Below, in pieces: positions 15,455 to 62,620 of a stretch of 64,000 nt of DNA. The position numbers and the translations under genes were made by a program. The stretch is from Brettanomyces bruxellensis (Eukaryota > Ascomycota > Pichiomycetes > Pichiales > Pichiaceae): NCBI RefSeq assembly GCF_011074885.1, contig NC_054684.1, positions 496,001 through 560,000 of the forward strand, written 5' to 3'. How positions within the stretch are numbered: the first letter of the stretch is position 1; the number at the start of each line of letters is the position of its first letter. The notes under the pieces were generated by a model. That model had not been told where the DNA came from, searched no databases, and was given only the letters and a program-made list of their open reading frames with translations.

Positions 15455-18400
15455 ATGAATTCGGACGGTGTGAACCAAATTGTTGGCTCTTTGCAAGTCA
15501 TCTATAACCCCCGATCATCAAATGATGATCGTCATAAAGCTGAGCAATTTCTAGAGAAAATCAAGCAAATACCTGAATCTCCATTCTGGGGCTATCAGTT
15601 GGCTCTTCCAGATAATAAATACGACTATGTTGTTAGGCACTACGGTCTTAATCTTTTGCTCGACGCCATTACAAAAGATTACTTCACGTGGGACCTTGAA
15701 AAGAAACTTGCTGTTCGCCATTGGGTTGTTGAACTTGCCAGCAAAGCATCACCTCAGGATCCCCACTATATGAAAGAGAAAGTCGCGTTTCTTTGGGTTG
15801 AAGTTGCCAAGAGATGCTGGGGTCAGTGCCTAGTCAAAATGGACACATCATCAAAACCTGTTGGAAAAAGTAAGGATGATGGTATATCTTCCAACCACAC
15901 GGATGGAAAGCTTGAGTCAGCAGATACTGCCAAGCAGGCCAAGGACTACTCTGAGCAGGAAAAACAGGAATCCTGGTCTTCCATGGATTCGAACTTGTTG
16001 GAATTGTGGAACCACGGAAATGTCACCAAGGAGCTCACGCTGATAATCTTCAGGACATTGTTTGAGGATGTGTATCTTCTTGATGACCCTATTGTGTCAC
16101 AAAGAAGTAACGTTCTCTCTTCCCTTTGCCCTGAAGTTGTTACTTCTGAGGAAGTTCTACTTATGAAATACGAGCCAAACGAGCCACTTAGAATGTTTGC
16201 AGCCTCCCAGGAGGGTTGGCTCGTCCGCTGGTGTCAATTATTGGATCAATGCATTGATTTTCTTCTTGAAAACAGTGCGACACAATCAAATCCCGATCTC
16301 CGTTCAAAATGCAGCACGTACACATCGTTTGCGACCAAGATTCTAGAAGTGTTTAAAACAAGTCTTTACTGGATTTTGCCTGTGGCGTTTAGGCAGGTTG
16401 GAATTTTGGCAAAGCTTAGTTCACTTTTGAAAGTTGGTAACGTCAAGATACAGACCCTTTCGATCGATTGTTTCCAGGTTCTTTTTACGAGATCGTACTC
16501 AGAAGAGGAAGATTTTAATGAAATAATTGGCTCTATATTCAGCACGGATGGCCTAGCGATGTTGTTCAAACTCTACAAATCGATAAATTTGAATCCGGAT
16601 GATATAGATGAAATCAGGTACACCTTATTGAAGAAGCTCGTTGAAATGATTGTTGGTCTAAGTGAATACTTACAAGCAACCTCCGGCTCTCAGAGCTTTG
16701 CACTCCCGAAAAATGTGGATATAGTTAATTATTACAAGTTGGTGCTTGAAACAACCAAGCATGAATCATTGGTAGTTTCTGGTCTTTCTCTTCAGTTTTG
16801 GTGCTCTGTCTTGAGAATCGACGAGCTATCCGCAAAGCATGATTTTGAGCAAGTCATGCCCGAATTACTTGAAGTCAGTGCCAATCACCTAATTAATTAT
16901 GCTGATTATGATCCTGACTGCGTTGCAAACAAATATCTTGAAATAGATTTCGAGAATCAGCCCGAGCACACCACTTTTTTGACTAATTACCACAAGCTTA
17001 ACGATGACATTGTGCGAATAATCGTCTGTAAGAAGCCAAAGGAAGGACTCCAATGGTTGGCCAATAGATTGAATCAGTTTTATTCGTCATCCTTGGGAGT
17101 AGAATCTCTTAATAATAATAGTTTGACCTACAAGGATAAAGGATCGGAGCCTTTTATATGGGGCTATGCTCAGCTAGTTACAATAGAGGCTTGTGTTCGT
17201 GGTATTTCACGTTGGCTCATCTGGTATACCGGATCTAATTTCGATGATGAGAAGGCCTTTTTGATCCATGAGGTGGATGATCTCTGTAAAACACTTCTTA
17301 CCATTGAAATCAAGGATCCCGTTCTTCTCAGAAAGCAAATTCAGACTCTCGTGCAATTCACACCCCTTTTGAAGGATGTCTCGGGTACTATGTTCAAAGT
17401 TTTGGAAAAGGTTATGACATCCTGCACATTTGAATATCCAGATAACGCTGATGATGATGAGAGAGAGTTGATTAGAGACTTGCGCACATCTGGAGGAACT
17501 GAGTTGAACAGACTAGCTTATTTGATGCCAGAATCATTGAAAAGCATTTTGCCTCAACTTGAGGAGGCAATTGCCGGTATTCTACAATCTGGAAAGTTGA
17601 GTCAGCATGAGTCTGTGGCATTTAAATCGTTCCTGTTGGTTGTGTCTCAAAGATCATCTATTGACAACAAGGCCGAACGATTCAGTCGTATAGTTGATCC
17701 AGAACTTCTGGCATGGTCTGATCCAGCAACAGAAAAAGGATTGCTGGAATTACATTGGTTCATGGAAAGACTCGGAATTGTGAAAATTGCAAAGTATTTC
17801 CAATCGAGGGGAATAACTGCAAACACGAATTTACTTGAGGCACCGATGGATGAGCCTGGAAGACAGTTGAAGAATGAATTGAAAGAGCAGTGGTCATCCA
17901 TATTCCCTATCAGAGCCACTCGTATTTTTATTCAATATTCAATCGAGAAACTTGATCACCGTTCAACCACATACAAAGATCTCTTGAAACTTTGGAAGCC
18001 TCGTGTGAAGCCAATCTTACCTCATATTCTTCAGCTTATATACCAGATTCAGGCATACCACAATCCAGCCAATTGGGCCGATCTTCCAAGCGAAGTTCAA
18101 AGCTTTGTGAAATATAGTTGTATGGAGAGATTCTGGCAGCAAGGAGTTTCTATCCAGTCCAAGGAATCGTTTATGGATGAAAGTGTGAAAGCTATGCACA
18201 CATTGCGAGACTTTGCAGACAGTGTTGGCCACATAGTAAGGTATACCAGAGAATACGCATATTTAACGATCAGCTCAATATCAGAGTTAGAGGAAACTCT
18301 GTATGAAATTCCAAACTCTGCTTCTCTGCTTTGGAAAGCTCTTACTGGAGAATCTGTGGGAATAACTCTACATTCCTGGAGGCATATGCTTAATCTGGTC

Positions 18401-19276
18401 ATTAGGAATGTGATTAAGAACTGCCCTTTGAATTACATCGATACGTTTATGGCCGAGTTAATTCCTCAGATGTTGAATACCATAGATAGTCTTTTAATGA
18501 GTCGCTGGAATATTGTTTACAGGAAAGGTCTCCAGCTTGAAGGCAACGAGTCTGATGCACAGCTCAGTGAGGAAATGATGGAAGAGCACATGTTAAGACA
18601 ATTGACGGCCGTTGTTGACAGAATGCTTATTGACTTGGTTGGACAGCAATCACCTTCAAACTTAAAAGAGAGACAATTAAGGACGCGGAAGCTGATATTT
18701 GGCAATTTGGTGTTACTTGCACCCTTGCTTACACTTCTTTGTCACATCATAGAGATTAAAGACACGCGTTGTTCATTTAATGCGATATTAATACTCAAGC
18801 ACATGCTTCCGGATCTAATTGCCTTGGAAGATTCCGAAGTCGATAAGTTCATGAGTGAAAACCTTATACACACTTTGCTAACAGTTTTAACCGACAAATT
18901 TTTTGCGGATGTGCATCCGGAAGCTGCATATGCACTCACAATTTTGTACATGGGTTTGCGGTACAAATCATCGTATCCGGCAGTTGTCTTGCAACAGATA
19001 TTGAACTTGGAAACAAAGGAGTTACAACAGTTTGAAGCTCTTTTAGCTGATTGCAAGAAATTGAGGCAGAGAAGAAACTGCTTCTTAGAATTAATCTCGA
19101 ACTCTCAAAAGAAGATAAATGGGGAGACGGGAGATGATGAGGAGGCTAAGAGAAGAGAAAGAAGGAAGAGGTTGGATGCTTCGCGCAGAAGCAAACGTAA
19201 TACTAATGGAGGAAGTCTAATGGATGATCCATTTTCTGAAAATAACGCTTTAAGTACGTTATTTGGGGACGAATGA
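15455..19276 (+). CDS. MSN5: Karyopherin Msn5 (exportin-5 type)
   Basis: A 1273-residue HEAT-repeat karyopherin. Msn5 exports phosphorylated cargo (Pho4, Mig1, Far1 and others) and imports RPA in a Ran-GTP-dependent cycle. The N-terminus has the exportin-5 pattern: VNQIVGSLQVIYNPRSSNDDRHKAEQFLEKIKQ, then PFWGYQLAL and VRHYGLNLLLDAI. Alpha-helical repeats continue to a basic, Arg/Lys-rich C-terminal tail (about 1220-1255) and a closing acidic segment. Length is close to S. cerevisiae Msn5 (1224). The single long ORF begins at an ATG after a pyrimidine-rich leader and is convergent with NSE3 (193 bp apart). Confidence 0.88.
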   Translation: MNSDGVNQIVGSLQVIYNPRSSNDDRHKAEQFLEKIKQIPESPFWGYQLALPDNKYDYVVRHYGLNLLLDAITKDYFTWDLEKKLAVRHWVVELASKASPQDPHYMKEKVAFLWVEVAKRCWGQCLVKMDTSSKPVGKSKDDGISSNHTDGKLESADTAKQAKDYSEQEKQESWSSMDSNLLELWNHGNVTKELTLIIFRTLFEDVYLLDDPIVSQRSNVLSSLCPEVVTSEEVLLMKYEPNEPLRMFAASQEGWLVRWCQLLDQCIDFLLENSATQSNPDLRSKCSTYTSFATKILEVFKTSLYWILPVAFRQVGILAKLSSLLKVGNVKIQTLSIDCFQVLFTRSYSEEEDFNEIIGSIFSTDGLAMLFKLYKSINLNPDDIDEIRYTLLKKLVEMIVGLSEYLQATSGSQSFALPKNVDIVNYYKLVLETTKHESLVVSGLSLQFWCSVLRIDELSAKHDFEQVMPELLEVSANHLINYADYDPDCVANKYLEIDFENQPEHTTFLTNYHKLNDDIVRIIVCKKPKEGLQWLANRLNQFYSSSLGVESLNNNSLTYKDKGSEPFIWGYAQLVTIEACVRGISRWLIWYTGSNFDDEKAFLIHEVDDLCKTLLTIEIKDPVLLRKQIQTLVQFTPLLKDVSGTMFKVLEKVMTSCTFEYPDNADDDERELIRDLRTSGGTELNRLAYLMPESLKSILPQLEEAIAGILQSGKLSQHESVAFKSFLLVVSQRSSIDNKAERFSRIVDPELLAWSDPATEKGLLELHWFMERLGIVKIAKYFQSRGITANTNLLEAPMDEPGRQLKNELKEQWSSIFPIRATRIFIQYSIEKLDHRSTTYKDLLKLWKPRVKPILPHILQLIYQIQAYHNPANWADLPSEVQSFVKYSCMERFWQQGVSIQSKESFMDESVKAMHTLRDFADSVGHIVRYTREYAYLTISSISELEETLYEIPNSASLLWKALTGESVGITLHSWRHMLNLVIRNVIKNCPLNYIDTFMAELIPQMLNTIDSLLMSRWNIVYRKGLQLEGNESDAQLSEEMMEEHMLRQLTAVVDRMLIDLVGQQSPSNLKERQLRTRKLIFGNLVLLAPLLTLLCHIIEIKDTRCSFNAILILKHMLPDLIALEDSEVDKFMSENLIHTLLTVLTDKFFADVHPEAAYALTILYMGLRYKSSYPAVVLQQILNLETKELQQFEALLADCKKLRQRRNCFLELISNSQKKINGETGDDEEAKRRERRKRLDASRRSKRNTNGGSLMDDPFSENNALSTLFGDE

Positions 19277-29362: not shown

Positions 29363-31456
29363 ATGCTCCTCTTCTATGTTTTATCAACGAGCTTGTGAAT
29401 ATTTATAATAATTGAAAGTCGAGTAATTAGGATGGAAACTTATACTAGAAAGGTGGAAACAACATCTAGACAGGAAGAAAATGAAAGTGAATAATTACAG
29501 AGGTTTTGAACCGAAGTTTTAGAAAATGACCAAAAAGAAGGAAAATGGAGGTAATCGTCAAACATAACTTTTTTTTTTAAAGTTCCATCATGCATAAGGA
29601 ACACGGGCTGTGAGTGATATTGAGTCAAGAAATTTAGACAATACGGAGATTGTAAATGCGGCATATTTGAGAAAACACAGTTTCTATTCAAGACAAGAAA
29701 AAAACAAATAGGCTGGAAAGGTCTTTCTTTTTTTAAGTCGACCTGCACCATTGTCTAATTCTAATGAAAAGAACAATTGGGAAATAAAAAATAGTAAAAC
29801 GTATTTTAAGGGCCTGTACAAAATCAATCGATTTAAATAAATATGTTAAGCAAGGACTCTATTCGTTGAGAAAGCAAATATTTAAGGAATGTTGAGACTT
29901 GTAAAAAAAAAAAAGAGAGAGAGAGATACATTAAAAGAGGTATATACTCATATATGCATTTCACCTTTGAGGATCGACAACACAAGTTTTGAGCCTGCAT
30001 ATGATAATCTTTACGGCAAAATTGCTTCTTTTCACATTTGTCTTGAACTTTTTTTTTTGACAATAACCACACTACAAGGGGAAACAAAGTAGGTCAAGAA
30101 TAATCATACTCCTGAAGCCTTCAAAGAATATTTATGGTTACCAGGAGTTCCAATGAAATATATTGCTGCACGATAGATATTTGAACACTGAACAATGCCA
30201 CCTAAATAAAATTATTTTTCGAAGAAGTAAGAATTTCTGGACAGAAATATATGTGTGTATGGAAAAATTCTGATATTTCTAAATCTTAGTTTGGAAATGC
30301 TAAGATAATAGAGAAACACGATTATACAAAATAAGATTTGCGAACCCAATTTGGGCAGTGATCCGATTTGAGCGGCAGTGCAGCATGCTTATGCACCTCT
30401 GCGTCACACACACAAAAAATGAATATTCCACGACTTGCACAATATTTACATTAAGCAATTTTTTTATTTTTCCTTCACCTGGAACTTGCTAACGTGTAAC
30501 ACAATACATAATTTCGAAACAAAGGACTTTCGATTGCTCTCAGAAGGGGCTTTACCAAATATGGCACTTGACATATGGCAGACACAATCGTTGATGACTG
30601 ATTCTCTAAGGCTCACAAAATTCCCAATAAAAGTGAGGTACAGCAATTTCTTTTTCAGTACCGCGTTCCCCATCTCCTCCCTCTACGTCCATGTGTTCGT
30701 ATTGTTTTGATGCATAGGGATACATCGCCTTCCAAATTTGAAAAATACAGTAAACACAGCGTAAATATCAATTAAATAAGGTTGTGCGCAATGAATAACA
30801 ACTTACCAATGATTCCGACAGGCTTATTAGAGTTCCTTAAAATTCCTATTGTACGGATTTTCGGTTCGAAGAAGGCGCTGCCGAATAGTTGCTCACTATT
30901 CAATTAAATGAAGAACCTATTTCAGAGCATGAAAATGCCTCTTTTTGAAAGGTTTAGAGTACAAAGGGGGCTTTTATTGTTGATATCATATTCTTTGAAA
31001 GCTGTGAACTTTGCAGTTTAGGAAATATCGATTGCTTCATTCGTTCATATAAGTGTATTCAACAGCTTTTCATCTTACAAAAAGGATAAACTTCATTGAA
31101 GTGCTTTGAGTATATACAAAAGTAAAGATCTGCAAATCTGAAGAGTAACAAAGATCAGCAGTTATTGATTTACGACCGTGCTTTTGCAAAAACAATGCTA
31201 CATAAGATTGAATAGTGCAACCATTACCTCCATAAAAAGTTTCTTTTCTTCATGAGTAATCGTTACTGGAAAGGCTCCTTTGACAATAACAATAAATATT
31301 TCGATAAAGAAACAAATAAACATGTTTACACTTGTATACCTACCAATATATAAAGCTGTAATTACCCTGAAGTAGATGCAAGAAGAAACAGTTTCTTGAC
31401 TTTTGGTTTTGATTTTCTTTTTTATTCAGACAAAATTAAACACCTTCATTACCAAG
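29363..31456. other. Intergenic region without a supported gene
   Basis: About 2.1 kb of AT-rich DNA with GA and A/T runs near 29900-29930. It contains the divergent promoters of the zinc-finger gene and the cell-wall gene, including TATATAAAG at 31347-31355, about 100 bp before the latter's ATG. Short frames (67-91 codons) show no domains. Confidence 0.5.
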
Positions 31457-33829
31457 ATGATTTTTTCAAACGTTGTTAGAGTTTTGGCCATAACTTCCCT
31501 TTGCACAAAGGGTATGGCTGCTCCATATCCAGTAGCAAAAGGTGTAAAAGTTTACGAACGTGAGGCTGCACCAATTGCAGATCCAGAGCCGGTTGCTTTT
31601 ACCTACAATGAAGAATTGCTAAAGAGAGACGGTCTTGCTAGTGCAATCAGTGCTCTTCTTACTGATGCTGTGAGCACAGTAGCCAATGGATTGCTTGGTA
31701 CTCTTAACACATTGGTTCAAGGGCTAGTTAGTGATTTGACAAGCTGTGATGGTGTTCTTAATGATTTAGGTGCTGTTCTTGATGGTATCCTTACCGATGC
31801 TGGTGAAGGTGCTGACTCATCTGTTCAGGATGTTGTTACCCTTATTCAAAATCTTGTTGATGCCATCATTTCAGGTGCTTCCAGTGCAAATATTCTTACC
31901 GATTTATCTAATCTTCTAAGTGGAATTGTCTCAGCAGTTGGAACTGGTGGTGATGACGTTCTAACCACAGTGGGAAATCTTCTTGCAGAATTGGTTGAAA
32001 GTTTAACAACTGCCAAAGGTCAATGTTCTTCTACCGCCGCTGTTACCCTTACTGATGTTTGCGGAAATGCCATATCTTCTAGCTCTAGTACTTCTACTAA
32101 TTTCGATGCAGAGGGCATTCTTGGAGATGTTGCCGAGATCATTAACGATGCAATCTCTTCTTTGACTTCAAGCACAGGCTCTGGAATACTTGGAGACGTT
32201 CTTGATTTGATTACAGAACTTATTGACGACTTGACTGACTGTGATGGTGTTTTGAATGATCTTGCTACTGATATCCAAAGCATTCTTTCAGAAGCAGGCT
32301 CCTCAGGAGATGATGTTCTTAGCGAAATTGCTAGTTTGCTTGGAGACCTCGTGACAGATATTCTTACCTCTGCCACTTCCCTTAATATATTAACTGACTT
32401 GAGTAACTTGGTCGGAAAAATCTTGAGTTCAGTTGGATCGTCAAGTAGTGACGTTCTTAGTGACATCGGTGATTTGCTTGAAAGTATTTTGAATACGCTT
32501 GCCAATGGTAGTGCATCTTGCTCATCAGAATCTTCTGCAAAGTCATCATCTTTATGTACCAGCTCAACAAACTCTCTTTCCAGCGCAAGCTCTAGCTCTG
32601 TGACTTCCTCCAGCTCTTCTGCCTCTACATCTTCTTCAAACTCCTCTGCTGAAACCACATCTGTCTCAAGCTTGACTGAATCTTCATCTGGTTCGAGCTC
32701 GACTGAGTCTACATCTGGTTTGAGCTCCGTTAGCGGTTCAACCGAAACATCATCTGCTACTGGTTCTAGCTCAGTTACTGAGTCAAGTGGATCAGCAAGT
32801 TCTACCGGCTCTAGCACTATAAGCGGATCGAGCACCGCATCGGGATCTGTCAGTGGATCGAGTATTACATCAGGTTCAGTTAGTGGATCAAGCACTGCCT
32901 CAAGTTCAGTTAGTGGATCAAGCACTGCCTCAAGTTCAGTTAGTGGATCAAGTATTACATCAGGTTCAGTTAGTGGATCAAGTACTGCATCAGGTTCAGT
33001 CAGTGGCTCTAACTCATTGACAGCTGCCACTGGTTCTTTAACCAAAACAAATGAAAGTGGTAACGAAACAAAGACATCATCAGGTGCAAATGCTAGTGCC
33101 TCAGGTAATGGATCTGGTTCTAGTGGATCAGGATCTAATTCAGGAAACGGTTCTAAGAATGGCTCGGGAATCGAATCAGGAAATGGATCGGGTTCAGGTT
33201 CAGGCTCAGGTGCTAACGGTAAGAATGTTGAAACAACTGTCATTACTGTTACATCATGCTCCGATCATGTCTGCACTAAGACTCCTGTTACTACTGGCGT
33301 TTACTCTTACACTACAACCGAAAATGGTGTTGAAACCGTTTACACAACCTACTGCCCATTGACCTCTGAAGAGACTAAAGCAACTGTTTCTGCTTATCCA
33401 GAAGAGACTACTGTCATTACTGTCACCTCATGCTCTGATAATGTCTGCACTAAAATCCCTGTTACTACAGGTGTCTACTCTTACACAACAACCGAAAATG
33501 GTGCAGAGACCGTTTACACAACTTACTGCCCATTGACTGCCGAGGAGAATGAAGCAAGTGTTTCTGCTTCCCCAGAAACTTTAGCCTCAGTTTCATCATC
33601 CGCAGCTACTCAAATTGCCGCAGGCTCTGTTAGTGAGTACACAGGTGCATCTTCTTCGGCTCAATTGATTAAATCCTCAGCTTCATCTGTTGCTGCAGTC
33701 TCGACTTTGGCCTCATCAGCCGCTACAATTCAGCCTTCTGGCTCTGTTAGTGAGTACGAAGGAGCTGGCTCATCTATTCAATACGGAAGTCAGCTACTCT
33801 TAACATTGCTTGCTGTTTTCTTGTTATGA
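31457..33829 (+). CDS. Secreted GPI-type Ser-rich cell-wall protein with duplicated helical domain
   Basis: A 790-residue protein from the ATG at 31457 (the frame opens at TTG 31403). A signal peptide (1 to about 21) precedes a propeptide ending in a Kex2-like Lys57-Arg58. Two related helical blocks follow at about 60-190 and 220-355. They share CDGVLNDL (97 and 262) and NILTDLSNL (145 and 310), an exact 165-residue offset. A Ser/Thr stalk with tandem ten-residue [13 protein letters not shown] repeats follows, then a Gly/Ser/Asn spacer, then two copies of a TSCSDxVCTKxPVTTGV...TTYCPLT module found in yeast flocculins and mannoproteins. The end is a hydrophobic GPI-attachment tail. Likely a wall-anchored surface protein or adhesin. 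The helical block matches no family I can name. Confidence 0.85.
32817..33005 (+). repeat. 30-bp coding minisatellite (about six units)
   Basis: Tandem 30-bp units of the form TCAGTTAGTGGATCAAGCAC followed by ten variable bases, encoding the ten-residue Ser-rich repeat of the cell-wall protein. Several adjacent units are nearly identical at the nucleotide level, as expected for a length-variable array. Confidence 0.8.
33230..33540 (+). repeat. Two copies of the TSCSDxVCTK...TTYCPLT module
   Basis: Two consecutive blocks of about 135 bp (about 33230-33363 and 33403-33540) encode near-identical modules. A third copy, in another gene, lies on the minus strand at about 44443-44575. Confidence 0.8.
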
Positions 33830-37732: not shown

Positions 37733-38818
37733 ATGAAGTTCGTCATTGTCCTCTACGATGCAAATGAACATGCCAAAGATGAGCCAAAATTGTACGGTTG
37801 CACTGAAAATGCTTTGGGCATCAAGGACGAACTAGAAAAACAAGGACATGAAGTGATTGTTACTTCTGATAAGGAAGGCGAGAATTCAGAATTCGAAAAG
37901 AACTTGCCTGATGCAGATATAGTGATTACTACTCCATTCCACCCTGCATATCTTACCTCAAAGCGTATTGACAAAGCCAAGAAGCTCAAGCTTATCATTG
38001 TTGCTGGTGTTGGATCGGATCACATTGACTTAGACTACATCAATAAGAACAAGCTCAAAATTTCTGTTCTGGAAGTTACCGGATCTAATGTCGTCTCAGT
38101 GGCGGAGCATGTGATTATGACAATGCTTGTTTTGGTGAGAAACTTTGTTCCTGCCCATGAACAAGCAATCAATGGTGAATGGGATGTTGCCGCAATCGCC
38201 AAGGATGCTTATGATATTGAGGGAAAGACAATTGCCACAATTGGTGCTGGTAGAATTGGCTACAGAGTCTTGCAGAGACTTGTGGCCTTCAACCCTAAGG
38301 AGTTGTTGTATTATGACTACAATCCTTTACCAGCAGAGGCAGAGAAAGCTGTTGGTGCAAAGAGAGTTCTTGATCTGAAAGATTTAGTTTCTCAGGCTGA
38401 TATTGTGACCGTGAACTGTCCTTTGCACGCAGGAACTCAAGGAATGATCAACAAAGAACTTTTGAAACACTTCAAGAAGGGAGCATGGTTGGTTAACACG
38501 GCTCGTGGCCGCATCTGTGTTGCCGAGGATGTTGCTGAAGCTGTGAAAAATGGTCAGCTTAGAGGTTATGGTGGTGATGTGTGGTACCCACAGCCAGCAC
38601 CTAAGGATCATCCATGGAGATCATTTAGAAACAAGTATGGTGCTGGAAATGCCATGGTTCCGCACTATTCTGGTACAGTTCTTGACGCCCAGATAAGATA
38701 TGCTGAGGGTACAAGAAACATAATTCATTCCTTCCTTTCTGGAAAGCTTGATTATAGACCACAAGATGTCATCTTACTTGATGGTGAGTACCAGACAAAG
38801 TCTTATGGAAAGCATTAA
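37733..38818 (+). CDS. FDH1: NAD-dependent formate dehydrogenase
   Basis: A 361-residue cytosolic enzyme oxidising formate to CO2 with NAD+. It is very close to the Candida boidinii type: [46 protein letters not shown], then the NAD-binding GAGRIG at 171-176 with Asp195 setting NAD specificity. Active-site residues Asn119, Arg258 (NTARG) and His311 (PHYSGT) are present. The frame opens at TTG 37685, but ATG 37733 gives the family N-terminus ([10 protein letters not shown]). It ends ...SYGKH without a peroxisomal signal. It is convergent with the class III ribonucleotide reductase gene, an enzyme whose best-known reductant is formate. Confidence 0.96.
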
Positions 38819-39250
38819 GTTTATAGTTGAAGAAAAGTAACGCTGAATATATGTGCTTGTGTCATATAATAGTACGAATGCTTTATGTAACTTTGAGAAA
38901 GTGTTTTTGTATCGCTAAAGAATTCAAACGGTCGAAAAAATGCCCAAGTTTACCACATTTGAGAAGTTTACTTTTTTCGGATATCGCCTACTACGCGTGT
39001 AGTTCAAATAGTTTATTCACTTTGCTTAATCCTAACACCAAAGCTACAATTTTTTTGGTTAAACAAAAATAAAATTAATTGGGGGGGGGGGGGAAAAAAA
39101 AAAAATTCGATAAAATTAAATTTAGAAAAGAAAAGAATCATAACTAGAACCGATGCGAAAGCGTAAAACGCAATAGGAATAAAAAAAGAAATGAAATATA
39201 AAAAGCACCAACGAAACGACCAAATAAAAACAGATCCAAACCCAACGTAC
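38819..39250. other. Convergent intergenic region with a G13-A12 tract
   Basis: A 432-bp gap between the stops of FDH1 and the NrdD-NrdG gene (taking its frameshifted stop). It contains 13 G followed by 12 A (39081-39105). No gene seen. The apparent C-terminal extension of the NrdD-NrdG frame runs through this tract. Confidence 0.6.
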
Positions 39251-41757
39251 TTAAACAAGCACTGCCTGCTTTTCAGCAGTAACATCAATTTCCTCGATCT
39301 TCTTCCTCTTGACATCAAACTGCTCCTCAGTATCTTCCATATGGGATGGTAATCCTCAGAAAGGATCGTATTACCCTTACGGAACTTCTGAAGCTTCAAG
39401 TTGCCACCAGAAAGCTTCTTGCACTGGACAAGATCTTCAAGATCAACCAATCCAGGGACAACGGTGGTTCTAAATTGATATGGAACACCCGAGTTCTTAA
39501 TCATCTCGATACTGCGCTTAAGGACTTCAGGTTTGACATATTTTCCTGCTATTTCCTTGTATCTATCAAGAGAGCCTTTGATATCCATTGCAATGTAGTC
39601 AATCAAATGCTCATTGAAGATTTTCTCAAGCACTTGTGGGTTTGTTCCATTTGTGTCCAACTTGACGCTGATACCACTCTTCTTTAGTAATCTCAAGAAA
39701 GGAATTAGACCACGCTGAATAGTTGGTTCACCACCAGATATAACAAGATTTTTGTGCTTTGAATTCTCAACATAATCAAAGACATTTTCAATTGGGATTA
39801 ATGGAGATTCTCCCCTAACGACTGGTCCGTTCTGACACCATGGACATGCCAAATTACAAGTTGAGGTAAACATAATGGATGCCATTTTACCAGGGTAATC
39901 AATTAAAGTCTGCTTCATGAAACCTCCAATAGCGAGTTTTTTCTGGTCGTATGTTTTCCTTTTCTTGAACTCATTCTTTTTTCCAATGTTCCAGTCTTTT
40001 GTTGGCCTATAGTATCCAACAATTCGAGAGTAGACAAGTGTATGCTCGTCACACTTTGGACAAATAGGAACTTCTCCCACAATGTAACCGTGATTGCTGC
40101 AAATGCTGAAAGTTGGCGTCAAAGTGATATATGGGATTCTGAAATTCGTGGTGATCATTTTAACTAATTTCTTTGCTTCATCACCAGACGTTAACTTTTC
40201 ACCCAAAAATGTGTGGAAAACAGTACCACCGGTATAAGTACACTGTAGACTTTCCTGGTGATCGGCAGCCATCAAAACATCATCAGTGTAATTAACTGGA
40301 AGCATAGTGGAGTTTGTGTAGAAAACGGGAATATCATCGGTCTTGAAAATTTTCCTGTCATTACGTGCAAGACTATAGCATGCACCTTCTGCTGGTGTAG
40401 CTTCCAAATTGAATAAATGTCCAGTTTCCTGTTGGAAAGCTTCCAAACGCACCTTAATGAATTCAAGCACTTCAATAGCAAATGGCTTATCGTTGGCAAT
40501 ACCATGACCCAAAAGAGTTAGCATAGCTTCATTCATTCCAATGACACCTATTGTGTTGAAATGGTTTGCCCAGTAAGAACCTGTTTTCTCGTAGACGGAG
40601 CGAAGATAATGGGTAGCATAAGGAAATAGACTCATGTTAGAATCAACAACTTTTCTCTTAGTCTCAAGACAATCCTTGGCAACCTGCAATGTATCATCCA
40701 ACATTTCATGAAATTTCTTGATATTACCATCACTACGATGGGCAAGATTTGGGAGGTTAATAGTGACGACACCCAAAGAACCTGTCAATGGCATAGAACT
40801 AAACAATCCACCACGACTCCGAAGCTTACTGATATCGAGACGAAGCCTGCAGCACATGGATCTGAAATCGGATGGATCTAAGTCACTGTTGATAAAATTG
40901 GCAAAATATGGAACACCGTACTTTGCTGTCATTTGCCAAACGGGCTTCATTCTTGGCGCATCCCAATCAAATCCCTCATAAAGATTGTACGTAGGAATAG
41001 GAAACGAGAATATATTTCCATTTCCATCTCCTCCATACATGACCTGACAGAAAGCTTTATTGAACATGTCCATCTCCTCCTGAAAATCATCATAGACCCA
41101 ACTTTCATGATACTTTCCTCCAATGATAACAGGATGACCTTTCAATGTTGGGGGACAAACCAAATCCATTGAGACATTTGTAAATGGTGCTTGGAAACCG
41201 GATCTTGTAGGAATATTAAGCGAATAGATAAAGTTTTCAACCGCTTTGTAGACTTGCTCGTAATCCAAATGATCATATCTGATAAATGGTGCAAAATAAG
41301 TGTCAACATTTGAGAGAGCTTGTGCACCAGCAAGCTCACCTTGAAGGGTGAAAAGAAAGTTGACAGCTTGATTCAAGGCAGCTGAAAAGTGCTTTGGTGG
41401 CTTTGCCTGAATTTTGTTTTCAACACCTCCAAAACCTTGGGTGAGTAAATCTTCAAGACTCCAACCCGCACAGTAGGCGCTTAGATATCCAAGATCATGA
41501 ATATGGAATCTGTTTTCCTTGAAGTACTGCTGCACCTTATCGCTGTAAACGCTCAACCAATAGTCTTTAATGACATTGTTTGAAATATACTGCATAAGAC
41601 CCTGAAGAGAATAAGTGGAGTTAGCATTTTCCTGTGCTTTCCACGTCTTCTTTTCCAAGTACTTACGCACAAGGTCTGCATCTGATTCAGGTTTACTTTT
41701 TAGTTCACCTTGCTTGCTTGTAATCGAGGCAAGAATAGTTGCAAGTGTTGCTGACAT
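39251..41757 (-). CDS. Fused class III anaerobic ribonucleotide reductase and its radical-SAM activase (NrdD-NrdG)
   Basis: An oxygen-sensitive glycyl-radical ribonucleotide reductase fused to its activating enzyme. The NrdD part (about 30-600) has the thiyl-radical Cys96 (HIHDLGYLSAYCAGWSL), a MCCRLRLD motif (301-308), zinc-site cysteines 553, 566 and 569, and the glycyl-radical loop with Gly581 (SRIVGYYRPTKDWNIGK). The NrdG part (about 607-805) has the radical-SAM CX3CX2C (Cys634, 638, 641) and GGEP (675-678). An N-terminal ATP-cone is absent. The open frame runs to 39013, but its end is junk translated from a G/A tract. Shifting by one base at the GGG of 39343-39345 gives a short acidic/basic tail stopping at 39251, so a frameshift or homopolymer miscall is likely. 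Bacterial-type enzyme, no introns, in clearly yeast DNA. Confidence 0.93.
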
Positions 41758-41965: not shown

Positions 41966-42030
41966 ACGCGTCTGTATTCCGGAGCACTGATTCACGCGTA
42001 AGTTTTGGCGTCTTTTAACTAAGCACGCGT
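41966..42030 (-). promoter_or_regulatory. Triple ACGCGT (MCB-like) cluster upstream of NrdD-NrdG
   Basis: Three exact ACGCGT hexamers at 41966-41971, 41994-41999 and 42025-42030, 209-273 bp upstream of the start codon. ACGCGT is the MluI cell-cycle box bound by Mbp1-Swi6 (MBF) and marks G1/S genes for DNA synthesis, including yeast ribonucleotide reductase. In DNA this AT-rich one copy is expected only every several kilobases, so three in 65 bp is unlikely by chance. That MBF acts here is inferred. Confidence 0.75.
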
Positions 42031-43761
42031 TTCGTGGTCCTTCTTCTTTTGGATAATTTATTCTTGAAATTTGTTTACATTTAATCCATTCGTAACTCCT
42101 ATAAATGTGCCCGACAAAACACAATGGCAGGATTTATGAGTTCGGTACTTTCGCCGAAGTTTTCCAAAATTCAAACAATACAATTTGGAAAAAATTGATG
42201 ACAAAAAAATTTGAGGGCAAGATTTGTTTACTTTTTACTTTCGGCCTTTGATATACGAGTATTTAACAATACGTGGAAGGGCTGGTATAATATTATTTTC
42301 TACATAAACCAGCCACAAAACCGTCCCAGAATAAACGTATGAACGGGTATGAAGCTCAGGACAGAGGAGATTTGATGTCAGTTGTGTGAATATCAGAAGA
42401 AAGCGGTTGTTTATTGTGGTTGCTTAAGGAAGTACAATCATGCTTCATTCTTTATTGTTGTTTCATTTGAATTCTATTATGGAAATGTTCTCATTTTAAT
42501 CCAAAGATCATGAAGATAATTCAAATGCATAGCAAGGGACACAAAAATAGAATAAGAACTAAACTGTACTATGCCCTGTTGTGAGCTTGTTAACTGACGG
42601 CAATTATATTCTCCGTCTGTTCGATCTTGCAAAGAAATGTACAAATTTTTTCTGCCATCAGATTCGGAGATTTTTAGAATTTGTGGATACTTCAGTCTCA
42701 ACTTATGAATAAATTCATATTGCTATTTAGATAAAATCCCATCCTCTCCGTTAGCGAAGATAAAAGCTCGAGCATTTAAATTCGGCGATACACTTCGGTA
42801 ATTGAAACAATTTTTTTTAATGTGTAATCCACTATTTGAAACACCTCTGTGTCTAATGTTAAGGTTTACATGAAGGTCAACATTTACTTGGTTTTCAGTG
42901 TGATGCGGTTTAATAAGAAACAATATCAAAATTAATTTTTTCCCGATCCTTGTGAATGTTCTTTGAAGCTTATTAAGTGAGACCATCTGTAATTTGAGAA
43001 GCTTTCACCTTTGGGTTGTTTATAAGGAACGTGTGCTTTAAAAAATTAGCAGTTAATTGATCCCTAGATCGCGATATATTTCTCGGGAATAATACATTCG
43101 AAGCTCCCATCCACCGGCACTCGTCCTTTATATCATATAATAAATTCATTTCTCGTCACATCAGGATTGTCAGGTATTTACGAGAATGTGAAGGTTTAGC
43201 ATGTCCTCCGAAATTGGACCAAGGAATTCTACAATAAAACTTCGTAAACCTTAAATAAGCAATTAAATCATCTCGTCTTTACTTTTTGGGCTTTTATTGA
43301 TTGAAGAGTAATTACCAATACACATTCGGGCAGACTAAATATTGCTTCACTTTCGCCTGAATTTTGCTCACAGCAAGCGACTCTTTAAAATTGCCATAAG
43401 GACTCCAAAAGTTTCACAATTCTGGCAGCAGAGATTGTTTTAAGAAAAATAAAAGAAAATCCTATAAGTTTAAAATGTTTTTTTGAGTAAGACTATCTGG
43501 CATTTTAGCACAACGTGTATTACGGTAGCGTTAACTACATAAATACAACTCAAGAGGGAAAAAGTATGCGCATAATCGTGACATTTCATATCCTTTTTCA
43601 CAATTAATTTTCATCCTCTTTACCTGTGCCAGATTTCGATCAAGAATACCATATTGCTTCAAAATTCACTCTTTCATCACTTGATACACTATCTATAAGA
43701 CAAACATGGATGATAGATATATTGAGTGAGCTTATTGTTGGTGGTACTGAATTCACAATGG

Positions 43762-61534: not shown

Positions 61535-62620
61535 ATGGCATTCAAAAAGGATAAAGAAGATGATTTTTTTTTTTTTTGCCGAAAGAATGGTCACTTCAAA
61601 AAGGAATGTTCAGAGTACAAGAAATGGAAGGCCAGTAAGGCCAAAGAAGGAGTTCAGTCTTACAGTACTGAGGAAACTCATTGTATGGAAGTAATTGAAC
61701 TTTCAGAAGGAACAGTGGGTGAACTCCCTAAGGAAGTTTTCTTGTTGGATTCAGGTGCATCATGTCATTCGGTTACAGACGTGAACATACTTGAAGAGGT
61801 CAGAACTAGTGCTAAGCGGATAAAGACAGCAAACGGAAGTTCTGAAGTTCAACTTGTTGGTACAGCAAGGTGTGGTAATTTAGTCTTAGAAGATGCAATT
61901 TATCTAGAGCACGGTACACATAACTTAGTCTCGTTGTCAAGGCTTTTGAGGAAGGGTTTCAGGATTGTCTGGAATTACGACAAAGCATTGATATACGGAA
62001 GAGATGATAAGGTTGTGACTGTTGCCCATGAACGCAATGGTGTTTACGTCATGGATAATCCCGGTTTGGAATTAGTTCTAGAAGTCAGTGTCTCTTCTAA
62101 GCATAAGGATTTTCTTGCAAGCGTGCATGCCAGTTATGGCCATGCGTCTGTGAACAAGATGTTAAAGATAGTTGAGTCAATTTCGGAAAAGAAATTCTCT
62201 CAGGATCAAATAAGGAAAACTGTACAAGAATGTGAAGTGTGTTTGGGTCAGGTTAATTTGACTCATGGTAAGCAACACTTGGAAGTGGTTAAGAAACCCG
62301 GACACGTTCTTTGTGCAGATGTAATTGGTCCAATTAAGGGAAAGTACGGACTTATTGTTACAGATAAGTTCTCAACTTTCATGATCGGGAAGGTTTTGGA
62401 GTCAAGGTCTGAAGTGTCTCTAAAAACGATCGAAACAGTAAAGGAATTCATTAGCTTATTAAAGCTAGGAGGTTACAGGCCAATCTTCTTGAGGACAGAT
62501 AATGAATTTGCAACTAAAGCTTTAGCCGCGTATTACAGGGATATGGAATTGTTGAACAGTTTAATGCTCAATGTAGTTCTTATCAGAATGGGCGTGCAGA
62601 ACAAAGCGACTGGGATATAG
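61535..62620 (+). pseudogene. Gag zinc knuckle, protease and integrase fragment of the copia element
   Basis: A 361-residue frame with a CCHC-like knuckle (FCRKNGHFKKECSEYKKW, its first cysteine apparently lost next to a poly-T run at 61564-61576), the aspartic protease DSGASCHSV, and the copia integrase HHCC zinc finger (HASYGHASVNKM...CEVCLG). Two of the DDE catalytic positions follow, Asp in CADVIGP and Asp in RTDNEF. A frameshift before 62570 removes the third, and the frame ends soon after. Confidence 0.88.

Follow-up and report, generated by a model that had tools for sequence, protein, structure and literature searches.

The window analysed here, a 64,000-nucleotide stretch of the Brettanomyces bruxellensis genome (contig NC_054684.1, positions 496,001 to 560,000 of the forward strand), carries a single open frame that encodes both an anaerobic (class III) ribonucleotide reductase (RNR), NrdD, and its radical-SAM activase, NrdG. 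Typical yeast genes surround it, including those for exportin-5, PIG-F, a Nup35-type protein, a prenyltransferase, Zn2Cys6 factors and a purine permease; as the original prediction had stated, they lie on both sides of the fused gene within the same contig. The main features, in window coordinates, are the following.

15455..19276, plus strand: exportin-5/MSN5 gene (PF19273), used for synteny
37733..38818, plus strand: NAD-dependent formate dehydrogenase gene (NF005750), convergent neighbour 3' of the fused gene
39013..41757, minus strand: fused NrdD–NrdG open frame in this assembly, 914 aa
39949..41631, minus strand: NrdD (anaerobic ribonucleoside-triphosphate reductase) domain, residues 43–603 (PF13597, 583–585 bits, cut-off 26.2)
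39442..39873, minus strand: NrdG2-type radical-SAM activase domain, residues 629–772 (PF04055, 73.8 bits, cut-off 29.5)

The fused frame and its domains

That a budding-yeast nuclear genome carries a class III RNR fused to its activase, originally proposed from the letters and an open-frame list, was confirmed by the suggested profile check, in which both domains matched above their cut-offs within one frame (583 bits for PF13597 and 73.8 bits for PF04055). Curated models gave 484 bits for TIGR02487 (NrdD) against a cut-off of 326 and 166 bits for TIGR02495 (NrdG2) against 131, while the best NCBIfam match was PRK08270, at 830 bits against 548. The predicted structure model contains the RNR/glycyl-radical barrel fold and agrees with solved NrdD and PFL-activase structures; its pLDDT is below 50 at residues 308–323, the finger-loop tip, and the entering cysteine cannot be read from it. 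A Pfam search returned no ATP-cone (PF03477) in the window protein, whose NrdD match begins only some 40 residues from the N-terminus. Among the listed homologues, Pfam places this domain in 52 of the 53 proteins P0068–P0120 and in none of the 67 proteins P0001–P0067. The window gene is an intact-looking, host-integrated class III RNR gene of a budding yeast, whose activity is predicted from its sequence.

The interval first assigned to the gene, 39251..41757, is right in its end point, which matches the stop at which the near-identical, intact protein P0001 (835 aa, 19 member sequences) terminates. As a single frame it fails, since its 2507 bp are no multiple of three: the stop at 39251 belongs to a different frame, the change occurring at about residue 804, and the frame of this assembly continues to 39013. 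The shift relative to P0001 affects approximately the last 30 codons, beyond the radical-SAM core, and may be either an assembly error or a strain allele.

Other features of the window include a flocculin type 3 repeat protein, which is adhesin-like, at 31403–33829, and a match to Pol_BBD, a part of retrotransposon polyproteins, within a plus-strand frame at 61535–62620. Adjacent T and C homopolymer runs (minus strand), of a kind prone to slippage and sequencing error, lie just 3' of the fused gene at about 39080–39105.

Promoter boxes and G1/S genes

Yeast MCB and SCB boxes are the sites of G1/S factors. A motif scan upstream of the fused gene's ATG located three MCB boxes, one of which overlaps an SCB-like sequence.

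42025..42030, minus strand: MCB box ACGCGT at −273, overlapping an SCB-like CACGAAA at 42030–42036
41994..41999, minus strand: MCB box ACGCGT at −242
41966..41971, minus strand: MCB box ACGCGT at −214

In 5000 promoters of 1 kb simulated with a first-order model, ACGCGT occurred 0.093 times on average and never three times within 100 bp. When 24 palindromic hexamers of equal composition were compared in the window, ACGCGT was the only one with three copies inside 100 bp. Across the genome, an MCB triple of such spacing is found once, at the fused gene, against six occurrences of a reversed control pattern, and spaced MCB pairs number 19 against 46 for the control. As the reversed control is commoner than the real pattern, the promoter signal lies in the placement of the boxes rather than in their number. 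Two of the 19 pairs are at the fused gene, 13 fall inside frames of at least 90 aa, one of them (L190) within the second class I large-subunit gene, and four are intergenic. One intergenic pair is upstream of a dUTPase gene and another upstream of the gene for an RPA subunit; the other two (L185, between DnaJ and Alba genes, and L186, with no clear gene) precede no DNA-synthesis gene, and neither supports a DNA-synthesis reading.

MCB boxes also occur upstream of one class I large-subunit gene (L002; −284 and −233), the class I small-subunit gene (L174; −281) and the thymidylate synthase gene (−139), and are absent upstream of the other class I large-subunit gene (L003). No MCB box was present within 500 bp upstream of 19 other genes of the window, five of which are preceded by the half-sites ACGCG or CGCGT, nor within 800 bp upstream (357 bp for one) of eight other genes of the genome. 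Two encoded proteins combine KilA-N with ankyrin repeats, the architecture of Mbp1/Swi4. Given that MCB boxes are shared with one class I large-subunit gene, the small-subunit gene and the thymidylate synthase, dUTPase and RPA genes, the foreign gene seems to have been drawn into the G1/S programme. The promoter suggests that it is under host cell-cycle (MBF) control, and we infer that the acquired gene would be expressed together with the DNA-synthesis genes. It would thereby be a tangible example of a metabolic gene gained by horizontal transfer and seemingly brought into a eukaryotic cell-cycle programme. An Upc2-like TCGTATA at −501 was dropped as a likely chance occurrence (one 7-mer in 1 kb).

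Catalytic residues, reductant and proposed role

The residues expected of both activities can be placed along the fused protein; where counts are given, they refer to an alignment of 67 proteins.

41470..41472, minus strand: Cys96 codon, preceded by that of Tyr95; aligns with T. maritima Cys125 (C96 and Y95 each in 67 of 67)
40846..40857, minus strand: MCCR motif, M301-C302-C303-R304, the NrdDh signature (66 of 67, one gap)
40801..40803, minus strand: Phe319 codon; its aligned T. maritima counterpart is Ile359 of the finger loop (F in 43, Y in 23, one gap)
40051..40101, minus strand: presumed zinc site, C553, H556, C566 and C569 (kept in 65–66 of 67)
40015..40017, minus strand: Gly581, predicted glycyl radical, in RIVGY; aligns with T. 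maritima Gly621 (G in 65, two gaps)
39835..39858, minus strand: [4Fe-4S] motif C634-x3-C638-x2-C641, from translation and alignment
39724..39735, minus strand: GGEP SAM-binding motif, from translation

Cys96 and Gly581 had been named correctly at the outset, as they align with the T. maritima NrdD residues Cys125 and Gly621, whose roles have been described (PMC4493059), and the CX3CX2C and GGEP motifs are likewise present. The zinc cysteines held up in part: C553, C566 and C569 belong to the presumed site, but its fourth putative ligand is a histidine, H556, giving three Cys and one His.

Three traits define the NrdDh subclass: the motif (S/M)CCR, hydrophobicity of the residue at the tip of the finger loop, and a Tyr that precedes the conserved Cys; its group NrdDh4 carries MCCR together with Phe (PMC4493059). 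All three traits are found in the yeast protein (Tyr95, MCCR and Phe319), of which the M301-C302-C303-R304 motif, passed over in the original prediction, decides the assignment, while its MCCR and Phe resemble those of NrdDh4. T. maritima NrdD is also an NrdDh enzyme, although its NrdD and NrdG are separate proteins and those of the yeast are fused. The finger-loop motif of the formate type (T4, E. coli), MGCR, which occupies positions 288-MGCR-291 in T4 NrdD (PMC4493059), is absent from the yeast protein, where MCCR stands instead. Thioredoxin use has been reported for the NrdDh member from N. bacilliformis (cited in PMC4493059 and PMC4390871), and T. maritima NrdD needed a protein fraction of cell extract and did not accept E. 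coli thioredoxin (PMC4493059). By analogy of its motifs with those of NrdDh, a thioredoxin-like reductant is more likely than formate for the yeast enzyme. In a distant fused NrdDG protein (P0067), an intein-like insert of about 200 aa (PF14890, Pfam) lies exactly between the two MCCR cysteines.

The reading that we prefer, and regard as probable on the sequence evidence, is that of a host-integrated, oxygen-independent fused NrdDG, activated within the fusion, reduced by thioredoxin, controlled by MBF and serving dNTP supply under anoxia. When oxygen is absent, the C-terminal activase would cleave S-adenosylmethionine at its [4Fe-4S] cluster and generate a radical at Gly581, either in its own chain or in a partner chain; ribonucleoside triphosphates would then be reduced by Cys96 and the MCCR cysteines, which a thioredoxin-like protein rather than formate would restore. 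Lacking the ATP-cone, which mediates dATP feedback in many relatives, the gene would instead be governed by the host G1/S (MBF) programme via the three MCB boxes, and dNTPs would be made in S phase without oxygen. It is plausible that the fused gene frees dNTP synthesis from oxygen in this manner. More tentatively, and with slightly less than even confidence, we envisage a bacterial oxygen-independent RNR that has been rewired, with no ATP-cone, a fused activase and a host S-phase MBF switch, such that two parallel RNRs, one per oxygen regime, may share one cell-cycle control; this would make B. bruxellensis an anaerobically self-sufficient replicator among budding yeasts.

The activase needs a low-potential electron donor, and the original prediction that yeasts usually lack one is overstated. 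Five radical-SAM matches were found in the genome (MoaA, lipoyl synthase, biotin synthase, Elp3 and the fused gene), along with five flavodoxin-domain matches (three diflavin reductases, one short FMN-reductase-like protein and L011, a 1459-aa frame) and three Fer2 matches (one short ferredoxin and L176 and L177, frames of 723 and 1458 aa). Encoding four other radical-SAM enzymes and three diflavin-type reductases, the genome already feeds enzymes of this kind, and the preferred candidate for the electron donor is the diflavin reductase that we presume to be Tah18-like. Most yeasts have a further radical-SAM enzyme, TYW1 (wybutosine), which these five radical-SAM matches do not include. A genome search for PFL-like glycyl radical enzymes found none. 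One full squalene-cyclase-type gene (L178, with both squalene-cyclase domains) and one weak match below the cut-off were detected; L178 is presumably a normal lanosterol synthase, and read as such it leaves the squalene-hopene cyclase route of S. japonicus not evident.

There is no settled account of how yeasts produce deoxynucleotides when oxygen is absent. The difficulty is that the class I RNR radical forms at an iron–oxygen centre (PMC3019208). Anaerobic growth of D. bruxellensis has been reported (PMC8520639, PMC3596373). A budding yeast with both class I and class III RNR makes the question testable by simple gene removals, and the gene could be tried for engineering strictly anaerobic industrial yeasts. 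The alternative that survives best, although we judge it unlikely, is that the gene has been inherited but is dispensable or decaying, with class I supplying dNTPs and class III kept as a relic or stress reserve. Two large subunits and one small subunit of a class I RNR are encoded in the same genome. S. cerevisiae has been grown anaerobically with class I RNR alone, so that, with class I encoded here too, the fused gene may be dispensable. Its 3' frame is disturbed in this assembly, and NrdDG identity to Brettanomyces relatives (69–71 %) is below that of exportin (77–82 %). However, the catalytic residues are kept in three relatives at this 69–71 % identity, two of them B. nanus and B. naardenensis, P0001 is a near-identical copy with an intact frame, the frame change spares the radical-SAM core, and the only MCB triple of such spacing in the genome stands in this promoter, all of which count against this alternative.

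That the enzyme depends on formate, like E. coli and T4 NrdD, and is functionally linked to the adjacent formate dehydrogenase is a less probable alternative still. The dehydrogenase gene does lie 3' of the fused gene, and the best-studied class III enzymes use formate as donor (PMC4390871), but the NrdDh traits, with MCCR in place of MGCR and Tyr95 in place of T4 Asn78, argue otherwise, the two genes are convergent with no common promoter, and formate dehydrogenase occurs in many yeasts and other fungi. With a thioredoxin-like reductant favoured, the neighbouring dehydrogenase, which has a 99 % relative (P0121), carries less weight and is probably unrelated in function.

Origin, inheritance and known relatives

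The fused gene gives the single NrdD match in the 13.1-Mb, nine-contig genome, and its GC3 of 0.379 and codon-use correlation with the rest of 0.735 compare with 0.311–0.445 in 14 other window genes and 0.662–0.882 in the other window genes, respectively. The same fusion is found in B. nanus (P0003, 70 % identity) and B. naardenensis (P0004, 71 %), with which the window exportin-5 shares 77 and 82 % identity, respectively. In B. nanus, the exportin gene (FOA43_002632) and the NrdDG gene (FOA43_002636) are four locus numbers apart, the contig of each being listed at 1,427,540 bp, and in the window the two are separated by approximately 20 kb. This shared neighbourhood was not seen in B. naardenensis, where NrdDG and exportin are on different contigs (1,746,572 and 266,723 bp). 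We read these arrangements as one old insertion that was inherited within Brettanomyces, with the two genes separated later in B. naardenensis. A contaminating or recently inserted bacterial segment, for which the bacterial enzyme family and bacterial relatives 42–57 % identical to the window protein could speak, is extremely improbable and was ruled out by the host-like codon use, the yeast genes on both sides in one contig, the Brettanomyces orthologues with the exportin neighbour common to B. nanus, and the position of the gene inside a fused, largely eukaryotic clan.

This clan was delineated among 120 homologues listed of 7996 scored, 64 of which are fused; the named fused homologues are mostly from Pezizomycotina, plus Phytophthora and two Brettanomyces, while S. 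japonicus appears in the list with an unfused copy. The NrdD tree comprised 157 rows, namely all 67 proteins P0001–P0067, 10 of the 53 proteins P0068–P0120 and the 80 best of at least 585 prokaryote loci, with 80 viral loci left out. In it, 67 rows (64 fused and three NrdD only) fall on one side of a branch with support 100. The NrdG tree was built from 140 of 142 stretches, those longer than 120 residues, and likewise separates 63 of the 64 fused rows with support 100. Both trees, the phylogeny originally called for, thus set the fused clan apart, and the same split indicates that the two domains share their history. In a more careful tree of 38 of the 67 rows, the window copy, P0002, B. nanus and B. 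naardenensis group together at 98/89. AU tests, whose groups were picked after viewing the tree, allowed these four to group with 18 rows, the named ones mostly Pezizomycotina (p 0.575), rejected their grouping with seven rows around Phytophthora (p 0.013) and gave p 0.058 for a grouping with Phaeoacremonium and S. japonicus alone. A Pleurotus record (P0014) is placed among Hypocreales and may be contamination.

No specific prokaryote sister of the fused clan appeared in the 157-row NrdD tree, and an ultimately bacterial origin of the fused gene is supported. Of the proposed horizontal acquisition from an anaerobic bacterium, bacterial ancestry is upheld, whereas a direct, recent gift conflicts with the place of the gene inside a fused, largely eukaryotic clan. 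Fused eukaryotic NrdDG has been described in S. japonicus, F. oxysporum, two Gibberella, N. haematococca and Phytophthora by Lundin et al. (2010), who proposed one eukaryotic clan, a single bacterial transfer and spread among eukaryotes (PMC3019208), and a 2015 review again mentions the fused enzymes (PMC4390871). That such a fusion is unprecedented is not supported, since it was published in 2010 (PMC3019208) and is present in 64 of the 120 listed homologues. The window gene, likewise a single-ORF NrdD–NrdG of bacterial ancestry within one eukaryotic clan, is a budding-yeast member of this known family, whereas the list of eight given by Lundin et al. has no budding-yeast member, and the MCB promoter, the NrdDh signature and the missing ATP-cone do not figure in the accessible portions of that paper (PMC3019208). 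The anaerobic gut fungi (Neocallimastigomycota) resemble B. bruxellensis in having gained a class III RNR by horizontal transfer, which has been tied to their anaerobic life and for which TM6 is the reported donor lineage (PMC6712302, PMC10978972).

A search of the open-access literature found no report of class III RNR in Brettanomyces/Dekkera, although 'unreported' is a weak claim. The accessible text of PMC8520639 credits only S. japonicus with an acquired RNR, which it calls class I; the main text of a D. bruxellensis transcriptome paper, as available, lacks the string 'ribonucle' (PMC3596373); and of the twelve transferred orthogroups of Roach and Borneman, the ten shown in their table do not include the fused gene (PMC7052964). 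Relative to the open-access literature, budding-yeast membership, the MCCR/Phe NrdDh signature, the missing ATP-cone and the MCB triple may be new, a claim that we make only weakly.

Bacterial and archaeal nrdD–nrdG pairs encode the same two domains in the same order, mostly in separate frames where those of the yeast are fused. Among the best 80 of at least 585 prokaryote loci, the two genes occupied separate frames in 77 and were fused in one (L057), nrdG not being found in two. At 26 of the 80 loci, the nrdD frame opens again directly past its stop and contains nrdG, an arrangement that the search favours; loss of one stop codon plus the following stretch would create a fusion. Both trees place the exception, a 989-aa fused NrdD–NrdG frame of Anaeromyxobacter terrae, on long branches among the prokaryotes, and this suggests that the fusion arose separately in bacteria. 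Several IMG/VR loci in the range L142–L173 carry viral NrdD frames that reach about 3 kb or more, a length suggestive of inteins or other insertions.
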